This document shows, piece after piece, positions 37,461 to 41,715 of a stretch of 54,135 nucleotides of DNA. Below the pieces are notes generated by a model. The model was not told where the DNA came from, did not search any database, and saw only the letters and a list, made by a program, of their open reading frames with translations. The translations under genes were made by a program, and so were the position numbers. Source of the DNA: Clostridia bacterium (GTDB lineage Bacteria; Bacillota; Clostridia; Saccharofermentanales; UBA5734). Each line of letters opens with the position of its first letter. Within the stretch, counting starts at the first letter, position 1. Location of the stretch: positions 1 to 54,135 of the forward strand of contig SABL01000004.1 in the NCBI GenBank assembly GCA_009928985.1, read 5' to 3'.

Positions 37461-38600
37461 TCACCCCAGATAGGCGTGCGCATCTTTCAGCTTCTGTATG
37501 ATCGGGATATGCTGCGGACAGACTTGCTCGCAGGCACCACATTCAACACAGATCGAGGCATCCTCGTGGTTTTTGACCAGCCAGGCGTAGCTGTCCCGAC
37601 CGGAAGCCAGATCCTCGATCATGAAGGCCTGGTTATAGGCGCGGAAAACGGATGGAATCGCAACCCCTGACGGACAGGGCAGGCAGTATTCACAGCCGGT
37701 GCAGTCAACCTGGATTTTGCTCTGATACAAGGCCCGGACTTTTTCCACCCTCGCTTCATCCTCGGCAGTCAGGCAGCCCGGTTTCGTGTCGGCAAAAATC
37801 CGGAGATTATCATGGAGCTGGTCCATCGTGCTGACGCCACTGAGGATGACTTTGACCTCTGGCTTGTTGGCCAGCCAGCGGAACGCCCATTCCACGCCCG
37901 ATCGTTGTTCGGTCGCCTCATCCCATATCGCCTGGATTTCAGCTGGAACATGCGCCGCCAGAGCCCCGCCGCGCAGCGGTTCCATAACGACCACCCCGAT
38001 TCCTCGTGCTGCCGCATAATCCAGGCCGGCCAAACCAGCCTGGTAGTCGACATCGAGGATATTGAGCTGGATCTGGCACATGTCCCAGGCGTAGCTGTCA
38101 ACAATCTCCTTGAACAGTGGCAATTGGTCATGAAACGAAAATGCTGCAAACCGGATCCGGCCATCGGCCTTGGCCCGGTCGAGGAAATCCAGGACGCCCA
38201 GATCGCGCACCTTGCCCCACGTTCCCTGATGCAAGGCATGCAGCAGATAGAAATCGATCTGGTCTGTCTGCAATTTCTCCAGCTGGCGGTTGAGCAGCCG
38301 GTCAAAATCATCCGCTGTCTTAACCTCCCAGACCGGCAGTTTAGTCGCAAGAGACACTCGTTCGCGATAACCACCCTGCAAAGCCTTGCCAACAACGAGT
38401 TCGCTGTTGCCACCATGATAGGGATAGGCCGTATCCACATAGGTGACACCACCGTCGATACCAGAGCGGATCATCCGGATCGCCTCCGGCTCATCTATCT
38501 TCGTGCCATCAGACTGGCCCGGCAACAGCGGCAGTCGCATGCAGCCAATACCAAAAATTGACGTTTCAAGCCCCAGTTTTTTCCAATGCCTTTTTTCCAC
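37461..38600 (-). CDS. Aldo/keto reductase with C-terminal 4Fe-4S ferredoxin domain
   Basis: 379 residues. The AKR barrel comprises residues 1-~280 (GIGCMRLPLL; YVDTAYPYHGGNSELVVGKAL; DFYLLHALHQ). It is followed by two Cys clusters, CTGCEYCLPCPSGVAIP and CVECGACEQVCPQHIPI, that would hold two 4Fe-4S centres. GTG start with AAGGAGG 9 bp upstream. By family knowledge such enzymes reduce aldehydes or ketones. With fucI next door, lactaldehyde is a possible substrate but unproven. Confidence 0.93.
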   Translation of the reverse strand: MEKRHWKKLGLETSIFGIGCMRLPLLPGQSDGTKIDEPEAIRMIRSGIDGGVTYVDTAYPYHGGNSELVVGKALQGGYRERVSLATKLPVWEVKTADDFDRLLNRQLEKLQTDQIDFYLLHALHQGTWGKVRDLGVLDFLDRAKADGRIRFAAFSFHDQLPLFKEIVDSYAWDMCQIQLNILDVDYQAGLAGLDYAAARGIGVVVMEPLRGGALAAHVPAEIQAIWDEATEQRSGVEWAFRWLANKPEVKVILSGVSTMDQLHDNLRIFADTKPGCLTAEDEARVEKVRALYQSKIQVDCTGCEYCLPCPSGVAIPSVFRAYNQAFMIEDLASGRDSYAWLVKNHEDASICVECGACEQVCPQHIPIIQKLKDAHAYLG

Positions 38601-38748
38601 GATGAAATTCCTCCTTGAAGCCAGCGACCGAATGGATCAGCCATTCCTTGCCAGCCGAATTTTGCTGGTCTACAATGACATCATACGACTAAAAGTCAAC
38701 TTCAAGTCAAGCTCAGGCAGCAGATTCTTCGGACGATCGGCGGAAATT

Positions 38749-39183
38749 ATGCGCGGAAAACTTTTCTACGAAACCGGCCAGCTCAAGTACGAGGGCGAAT
38801 ACAAAATGGGAGCATCCGGTGCCATCCCTAATGGTCGTGGCATCAGCTACTACCCCGATGGCCAGTGCCACTTCGATGGTATCTTCAACGACTGGTCGGT
38901 TGACATCGGCGTCGAACACTATCCCAATGGACAGATCAAATTTGAAGGAATTTTCAACAAGCGTCCACGCGCCTACATCGGCCCCCGCTACTACGCCAGC
39001 GGCATCCTCTACCGCGATGACGGCAGCAAATGGTTCATCGGCACCTTCAATGTTTTAAAGCGCGGCCCGATCGAATCCCCCGTTGTCAAATTTCCCGACT
39101 GCTTTTACGACGGCATCGAATACACCGAGAACGGACAGCTGATTTTCCATGTCCCGTCGGATTTTATCAACTACGTGTATTGA
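38749..39183 (+). CDS. MORN-repeat-like small protein
   Basis: 144 residues. Repeated YEGEYKMGAS, FDGIFNDWSV and FEGIFNKRPR units with YYPDGQ/YPNGQ turns match MORN-like (toxin-antitoxin YwqK-type) beta-hairpin repeats. No signal peptide. ATG start with only a weak CGGAAA upstream. It is divergent from the reductase and convergent with the deacylase gene; the role is unknown. Confidence 0.75.
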   Translation: MRGKLFYETGQLKYEGEYKMGASGAIPNGRGISYYPDGQCHFDGIFNDWSVDIGVEHYPNGQIKFEGIFNKRPRAYIGPRYYASGILYRDDGSKWFIGTFNVLKRGPIESPVVKFPDCFYDGIEYTENGQLIFHVPSDFINYVY

Positions 39184-39806: not shown

Positions 39807-40190
39807 ATGACATCCTTATCGATGAGAATCCGGTCTTATTTCCAGCTAACCTGGGCCCTTTTGCTTCTCACAGCTCTGATCGCTGGCTGCAGCAGTCCTT
39901 CCACTTCAACTTCAGCAACTTCAGGTGTCAATGACCCCACAACGGCAGCATCCAGCATCCAGGCCTTCACATTGGAAGAGCTGGCCTCCTTCGATGGCCA
40001 GGATGGCCGCAAAGCCTACATTGCCGTCGATGGGATTGTCTACGATGTCACGCTGCTCGCTGAATGGGGGAACAAGATGCACGCCGGTCGTTTCTCAGCC
40101 GGCAAAAACTACAGTGAAGAGATCAAGAATGCACCCCATGGCTTGGACAAATTACTCAAGGCGGTCCAGGTGGGTGTCCTGTCTGAATAG
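39807..40190 (+). CDS. Cytochrome b5-like haem-binding lipoprotein
   Basis: 127 residues. Lipoprotein signal ending at C28 (ALIAGC), a Ser/Thr linker to about 52, then a cytochrome b5-like domain: FTLEELASFDGQDGRKAYIA, VDGIVYDVTLL, and the two candidate haem ligands H92 (KMHAGRF) and H111 (APHGLDKL). AGGAGG lies 5 bp before the ATG. It is followed after 55 bp by a membrane protein with paired His residues. Together they look like a small haem electron-transfer module on the outer face of the membrane. Confidence 0.87.
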   Translation: MTSLSMRIRSYFQLTWALLLLTALIAGCSSPSTSTSATSGVNDPTTAASSIQAFTLEELASFDGQDGRKAYIAVDGIVYDVTLLAEWGNKMHAGRFSAGKNYSEEIKNAPHGLDKLLKAVQVGVLSE

Positions 40191-40245
40191 CATCATCCGT
40201 TCATCGTTACAGTAATTACAACAGATCACACCAGAGGAGGACTTC

Positions 40246-40662
40246 ATGTACACATTGGGCAGGTTCCTTGGCTACGTCATCACCTTCGGTTATCTCTTAA
40301 CGATCCTCAACTATTTCGTCAAATGGCTGAATCGGACAGTCATGGCCAAGCGGCCCAAAGACGACTCCGCCCGCATGGCTTATACCCGTTTCATGCGGTT
40401 TATTGTCAGCAATCATCGCGTGTTTGCCATCATCACCTCAACCGCCCTGATTGCCCATTTCCTGATCCAGTCGCAAAGCTGGGGCCTTTATCCAACAGGG
40501 ATCATAGCCGGGTCACTCTTGCTGGTCCAGGGGAGTCTGGGGGGATTTGGCACCTACGTGAAAAAGAAAAAGCCTGGCGTGTGGCTAATGGTTCATCGTG
40601 TTGTGGCTATTCTGCTCGGCTTGGCGATTGTTCTGCATGTGTTGACCGCTCGCTTCAGCTGA
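40246..40662 (+). CDS. Four-helix membrane protein with four spaced histidines (putative dihaem cytochrome b)
   Basis: 138 residues with four hydrophobic helices. His57/His71 lie in one helix and His117/His131 in another. Both pairs are exactly 14 residues apart, the spacing used for bis-His haem ligation in cytochrome b561 and bc1-type b cytochromes. I do not recognise a named family. AGAGGAGG lies 5 bp before the ATG. It follows the cytochrome b5-like lipoprotein in the same unit. Haem binding is an inference from spacing. Confidence 0.75.
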   Translation: MYTLGRFLGYVITFGYLLTILNYFVKWLNRTVMAKRPKDDSARMAYTRFMRFIVSNHRVFAIITSTALIAHFLIQSQSWGLYPTGIIAGSLLLVQGSLGGFGTYVKKKKPGVWLMVHRVVAILLGLAIVLHVLTARFS

Positions 40663-40686
40663 ATCGTTTCTTCACAGATCCACGAC

Positions 40687-40727
40687 AAAACTCCGCTGTA
40701 TGACCAATTGGCCATCAGCGGAGTTTT
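40687..40727. terminator. Terminator after the haem pair
   Basis: Arms 40687-40698 and 40716-40727 (AAAACTCCGCTG/CAGCGGAGTTTT), perfect over 12 bp with a 17-nt loop. A second, shorter stem (ACGCC/GGCGT then TCTTTTTT, about 40768-40798) follows before the end of the convergent gene. Confidence 0.8.
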
Positions 40728-40794
40728 CGACTTTCTTGTAACAGTCCTGTGTCATCTACTAGAGCGCAACGCCGTCTCAACAAAGGCGTCTTTT

Positions 40795-41433
40795 TTAGCG
40801 ACCGCGACCGCCTGCTCCACGACTGGCAGCACGAGAAGTTTGATTGCCACGTGAGTTGCTGTCATCACCATTCTGGGCCTTGGCACCTGTTCTGGAACCG
40901 GTTCCTGCAGACAAGCCCAGGCCGACTCGTTCATCGAGTCGTTCAAAAGCGGCCAGGTGGTTTTCCGAACCTTTCATCAGGTTTTCGAAGACGATCCGGA
41001 TATCATCTGGCAGGTCCTGCGCGAGGAACTTTTCATACATACCAATGTTCAGGACTTCTGCGGTCACTCCGATGGCATAGGTTTCGGCAAGCGTAGCCGG
41101 CAATTCATAACTGTCCGGATCCGGCTGGGCCGGGACGGCGACATCATAGGCATCAAGCAAGGGCATCAGAGCCGCGATGTGCTTGTCTTCCGCTTTTTCA
41201 ATGTTGCTGTAGACTCGCACCGTGCCAAATTCATCCTGGATCGCAGCGTATTCGGCTTTGGCATTGAATTCGTCCTGGATGGCATAGGTCAGCATGTCTT
41301 CAATCGTATAGGAGGTATCTGCGTCAGCTGCAGCGGCGCCGGTCAATTCTGCGGCAGAAACCGCCATGCCGAAGGCACCGGTCAGGGCAAGGCTCAGGGA
41401 CAAAGCAGTGGTTATCTTGGCAAACTGTTTCAT
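40795..41433 (-). CDS. Secreted DUF2202 ferritin-like protein
   Basis: 212 residues. A cleavable signal peptide ends near VSAAE. A DUF2202 ferritin-like four-helix domain follows, with candidate di-iron ligands in EFNAKAEYAAIQDE, KAEDKHIAAL (ExxH), VTAEVLNIGMYEKF and SENHLAAFERL (ExxH). The last ~40 residues are Gly/Arg/Ser-rich and probably disordered. AAAGGAG is 8 bp before the ATG. Facing the haem-protein pair, it may bind metal at the cell surface. Confidence 0.9.
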   Translation of the reverse strand: MKQFAKITTALSLSLALTGAFGMAVSAAELTGAAAADADTSYTIEDMLTYAIQDEFNAKAEYAAIQDEFGTVRVYSNIEKAEDKHIAALMPLLDAYDVAVPAQPDPDSYELPATLAETYAIGVTAEVLNIGMYEKFLAQDLPDDIRIVFENLMKGSENHLAAFERLDERVGLGLSAGTGSRTGAKAQNGDDSNSRGNQTSRAASRGAGGRGR

Positions 41434-41715
41434 TGTTATTGCTCCTTTCAAGGCTGGTCTGGAATCCAGATCTGCCCGATCCGTACACGTGTTGTGAGAG
41501 ATCTTATGGTCTCAGCATAGACCTCAATTGTCAGAACTTTGTGTGGGAATTAGCAAATTTTTGTGAAGGAAAAAGTGCGCGATTGCTGCTTTCTTAAGGA
41601 TTCGACCAAAGCCGTGCAGGCCGCAAGGCTATCTTTCGTGCTACACTTGAAGCAGGCAGGACCATGCGCCATAGGGTGGCCAGGTCCGTCAGAAATGGAT
41701 TTCCGGAGGATTTGC

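Follow-up and report, generated by a model that had tools for sequence, protein, structure and literature searches.

Cytochrome b6 features four helices with His pairs spaced 14 residues apart on helices 2 and 4, and two such pairs, each placing one His at either membrane face, represent the layout of electron-transfer b cytochromes. Binding of haem b upon expression was demonstrated for one DUF4405 cytochrome with four conserved membrane His and for one FezC of ferrosomes, the four His being the most conserved residues (PMC10979944). In archaea, arCOG04002 (DUF4405) was placed in the cytochrome b family, including a fusion to Cyt-b5 in Thermococcus barophilus, and ferritin-like genes neighbour DUF4405 genes in Thermococci (PMC5898192). 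A CPR operon reported by Tamarit et al. (2021) comprises, according to PMC10093951, cytb5MY, two b5 proteins, TSPO and a putative ferric reductase. Both kinds of component discussed in the following, haem-b DUF4405 cytochromes and a DUF4405-b5 fusion in Thermococcus, are already known. A search of the literature for named b5 lipoprotein systems in clostridia returned nothing relevant, and no description of the clostridial split pair, the 4-helix core or the fusion was found in the literature searched. Here, we analysed such a pair in a stretch of 54,135 nucleotides (the window; contig SABL01000004.1, assembly GCA_009928985.1) from a Clostridia bacterium.

The locus and its cytb5M-type lipoprotein

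Both genes lie on the plus strand with 55 bp between them and an AGGAGG-like site before each ATG, and the open reading frames proposed by the sequence-only reading were recovered at 39807-40190 (127 aa, lipoprotein) and 40246-40662 (138 aa, membrane protein). Downstream of the pair, a hairpin at 40686-40730 (+) is likely to form the end of the transcription unit, common to the convergent gene; folding of 40663-40745 yielded -26.2 kcal/mol (z -4.3), and the hairpin is missing from the listing of the consensus terminator scan. The convergent gene (40795-41451, minus strand) encodes a secreted ferritin-like protein (DUF2202, E 2.5e-9), while a gene for a MORN-repeat-like protein is located upstream (38443-39183, plus strand) and adjoins the pair in close relatives, too. 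The membrane gene of two close relatives is directly followed by a Pyr_redox NADH-oxidase-like gene (L040 6638-8014 and L041 5230-6591), which is lacking at that place in the window. We rejected the DUF2202 ferritin-like and Pyr_redox genes as fixed partners, as only some of the closest relatives have them next to the pair, and in the loci examined no gene for an electron donor or acceptor was conserved alongside it.

The lipoprotein carries a hydrophobic signal and the lipobox LIAGC up to Cys28, as is typical of bacterial lipoproteins, followed by a Ser/Thr-rich linker (residues ~29-52) and the b5 domain (~53-125). An alignment of 13 sequences showed no variation at C28, H92 and H111, so that the two His which the earlier reading had highlighted are present at these positions and invariant; they represent candidate axial haem ligands, judged from the sequence. 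The designation as cytochrome b5-like lipoprotein held with respect to PF00173 (Cyt-b5), which was matched just above the cut-off (24.6 versus 23.7 bits), and to the lipobox Cys28, but a classical b5 identity was dropped in favour of the cytb5M class (MAPR-like prokaryotic b5), since the solved cytb5M proteins are nearest by both sequence and predicted fold. In fact, 6NZX and 6VZ6 were matched in a sequence comparison with the PDB (E 9.4e-12 and 9.5e-11, respectively), in a profile comparison with solved structures (E 6.5e-24 and 1.1e-20) and as the top two structure matches of the predicted fold, and both keep His at the two sites corresponding to H92 and H111. The tyrosinate haem ligand of MAPR/cytb5MY proteins is absent from the lipoprotein: the Tyr of 1t0g aligns with Gly94, four residues before A98-G99 and close to the invariant His92.

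A four-helix membrane protein with two invariant His pairs

The second gene encodes a predicted dihaem-b-type membrane protein with exactly four His, located at positions 57 and 71 on helix 2 and at 117 and 131 on helix 4. The two helices with one His pair each, 14 residues apart, that had been noticed in the sequence-only reading thus proved exact in their spacing and required refinement in their setting, as the predicted structure (pLDDT 74, four-sequence input) and hydropathy both give four helices, of which the second and the fourth bear the pairs. Among 14 aligned sequences, four of the 12 invariant columns are His; this share is 4/9 in an alignment of 23 sequences and 4/5, with a Gly as the fifth column, in one of 16 sequences with pairwise identities down to 13%. 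Within each pair, the spacing is 14 without exception in the latter two alignments, and the two pairs lie between 42 and 46 residues apart, depending on the sequence. For four His placed randomly in 138 residues, two 14-spaced pairs would arise with P = 5e-4 and two pairs with any common spacing of 10-18 with P = 4e-3; the conservation of the His is, however, the stronger test. Unconserved His in homologues had been named beforehand as speaking against the idea, and all six His across both proteins were invariant.

Lys and Arg residues are concentrated in the loops between helices 1 and 2 (seven) and 3 and 4 (four), with 0-1 at the other ends, which according to the positive-inside rule places both termini outside. 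Helices 2 and 4 would consequently run in parallel, with H57/H117 near the inner and H71/H131 near the outer face, and these inner and outer pairs are what is expected for two stacked b haems. This ligand pairing is suggested by the topology together with the analogy to the b-cytochrome layout.

The membrane protein reached 17.8 bits with DUF4405 (PF14358; cut-off 26.7) and 11.6 bits with PF01794 (Ferric reductase superfamily; cut-off 28), and none of the haem family models scanned gave a score above its cut-off. Among its relatives, 11 of 16 matched DUF4405 at E values up to 0.1 (best 3.3e-5), and the family as a whole shows mostly sub-threshold similarity to DUF4405, Ferric_reduct and b561. 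The four conserved membrane His, a DUF4405 trait, are present, and the six helices of the published DUF4405 models were not seen in the four-helix protein; membership in DUF4405 was rejected on account of the score and the two missing helices. Given the scores below the cut-offs and the four helices, we filed the protein in none of the three families; in its function, it would resemble them. A fold search with the membrane model placed the best matches (Z up to 11) among unrelated helical bundles, and cytochrome b6, NOX5 and b561 were listed without exceeding this four-helix background, e.g., the cytochrome b6 4h0l at Z 8.9 with 19% identity over 126 residues. When the sequences of the membrane-protein family were compared with those of solved structures, only insignificant cytochrome b6 matches resulted (E 3-5).

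Linkage of the two genes and the proposed relay

Of the 23 genomes of the host family, 13 contain the membrane gene and 12 the lipoprotein gene, and the two are adjacent in all ten genomes harbouring both. The lipoprotein gene precedes the membrane gene in the window, G018 and G012, and the order is reversed in the other host-family pairs. Further adjacent pairs were found at L005, G085, G138, G234 and G292, including distant Clostridia. Of special interest is the distant single-contig Clostridia genome G112, in which one 240-residue protein (L068 7316-8038) comprises four helices followed by b5; being C-terminal in this fusion, the b5 domain would come to lie on the outer side, where the lipobox places it as well. 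The proposed search for the pair in other genomes consequently revealed recurrent adjacency in either order as well as one natural fusion, and the occurrence of both orders and the fusion in distant genomes argues that linkage was selected repeatedly. Among b5 genes sampled across the class and sorted by eye into secreted and cytosolic from their sequences, a four-helix gene was linked to 5/12 of those with signal, anchor or fusion and to 0/24 of the cytosolic ones (Fisher p 0.002 on raw counts, ignoring kinship). The cytosolic proteins of this sample mostly have a CH motif where SPHG stands. A second, cytosolic clostridial cytb5M group (L075-L099 and L110, the latter with two tandem b5 domains) shows mostly a CH motif for the second His, and no linkage of this group to a four-His membrane gene was seen.

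Each gene also occurs by itself: the membrane gene in G017, G019, G305, G340, G206, G439 and G780, the lipoprotein gene in G001, G002 and some other Clostridia. In G020, about the last 23 residues of the b5 lipoprotein persist convergent to an intact membrane gene (L034 7790-7951, minus strand), and this remnant is a decaying copy.

Gene structure, six invariant His, fixed spacing, lipobox, topology bias, linkage and fusion are direct observations. They lead us to regard the pair as probably a minimal relay that passes electrons through the cytoplasmic membrane to the surface cytb5M lipoprotein, and the interpretation already offered by the sequence-only reading is supported as the most likely one. 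For haem occupancy, ligand pairing, direction, donor and acceptor, we infer the following course. The four-helix protein would sit in the membrane with both ends outside and bind, between its parallel helices 2 and 4, one haem b near the inner face via H57/H117 and a second near the outer face via H71/H131. The inner haem could receive electrons, most likely from a quinol of the demethylmenaquinol type or from an NAD(P)H flavoprotein in the cytosol, and hand them via the outer haem to the H92/H111 haem of the lipid-anchored cytb5M domain. On its flexible Ser/Thr-rich tether, this domain may deliver them to an acceptor outside the cytoplasm, which might be ferric iron, an oxidant or a partner protein. 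Weighing against this reading are the genomes with one of the two genes only, the fold matches of the membrane model that stay within the four-helix background, the absence of a conserved donor or acceptor gene next to the pair, and the failure to find ferrochelatase or AhbD over the cut-off in the host assembly, as set out below.

With regard to the donor, the host genome contains three consecutive genes (L115 8896-12852) for an NADH dehydrogenase-like (NDH-2-like) flavoprotein, a polyprenyl diphosphate synthase and a MenA-like prenyltransferase, a cluster which makes a quinol plausible as donor to the relay. We take this cluster to resemble those genes of flavin-based electron transfer loci that serve demethylmenaquinone; PMC9888254 was used for comparison. 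ApbE is encoded by two genes, both on contigs other than that of the window, and the lipoprotein adjoining one of them has no family match; a flavinylation partner was therefore rejected. Elsewhere in the host, a lipoprotein with thioredoxin-like, MsrA and MsrB domains (L062 2690-5098, minus strand) is encoded beside a CcdA/DsbD-type membrane protein, and it likely serves extracytoplasmic methionine sulfoxide repair. All statements on other contigs have to be read in the light of the host assembly, which is 97% complete and 7.7% contaminated. In this assembly, no ferrochelatase was found over the cut-off, and for AhbD only weak radical-SAM matches far under the cut-off. An apparent siroheme-type cluster contains hemB and, as recognized by eye, hemA-like, hemC-like and hemL-like genes; a family scan added a precorrin-2-dehydrogenase-like NAD-binding domain, CbiX and sulfite reductase. 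The host may scavenge its haem, make it by an unrecognised step or carry the genes in the missing 3%.

This lack of a recognised ferrochelatase or AhbD would also suit a role in haem handling, in which haem from outside is captured by the lipoprotein and then moved inward or stored by the 4-helix protein, in a host unable to make its own. For such capture, a lipoprotein at the surface with a haem-binding fold would be apt. However, the two invariant His pairs with their 14-residue spacing and one His per face follow the electron-transfer b layout, and no haem importer was recognised among the genes flanking the copies in the loci examined, where some of the neighbours were scanned against families; we therefore consider this option unlikely.

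An alternative option, in our view quite improbable, could be separate functions of an independent quinol or ferric reductase and a lipoprotein acting as haem sensor or carrier, whose adjacency is an inherited neighbourhood. Such independence is in line with the genomes carrying either gene alone and with the membrane gene being kept where the lipoprotein is missing (G019) or reduced to its C-terminal remnant (G020), but hardly with the selection for linkage deduced above. Finally, the His might bind another metal or a quinone, as could be proposed for a protein that no haem family model scores above its cut-off; this is rendered very unlikely by the invariance of four His at two depths of the membrane, beside a b5 domain and once fused to it, and by the haem b found in related DUF4405 proteins (PMC10979944).

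Comparison with known systems

If the electron relay is true, it would assign a concrete partner and job to prokaryotic relatives of MAPR proteins (PGRMC1) and reveal a very small two-protein design for electron export from Gram-positive anaerobes; most likely, the pair is among the smallest wires carrying electrons across a cell membrane. Tentatively, it may even exemplify a stand-alone, modular haem wire of Gram-positive anaerobes, in which a ~138-residue 4-helix dihaem b protein with a dedicated cytb5M outlet would be fed by demethylmenaquinol and, in haem-scavenging hosts, do with haem what flavins do in flavin-based extracellular electron transfer. The relay would also raise the question of where its three haems come from in a cell that has no recognisable haem synthase. 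For structure work, the G112 fusion offers a single-chain target.

The lipoprotein domain resembles the cytb5M proteins 6NZX (Hadesarchaea) and 6VZ6 (Methanococcoides burtonii) and their MAPR/PGRMC1 relatives in sequence, predicted fold and the two His, whereas in the window the domain belongs to a Gram-positive lipoprotein whose partner is a 4-helix membrane protein. The latter shares four helices and 14-apart His on helices 2 and 4 with cytochrome b6 and the N-terminal four helices of cytochrome b, at an insignificant sequence match. The CPR operon (PMC10093951) is comparable in placing a MAPR-like b5 beside a membrane haem reductase, but its b5 is Tyr-ligated and the operon is larger, with TSPO and a two-component system. 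DUF4405 cytochromes and FezC are likewise small membrane proteins with four His as the most conserved residues; the published DUF4405 models, however, have six helices and some are associated with ApbE, in contrast to the four helices and sub-threshold score of the protein described here. The arCOG04002-b5 protein of T. barophilus (PMC5898192) also joins DUF4405-type helices with Cyt-b5, and the ferritin-like neighbours in Thermococci add to the likeness; this archaeal system is fused, whereas in Clostridia the lipoprotein and the 4-helix protein are mostly separate.
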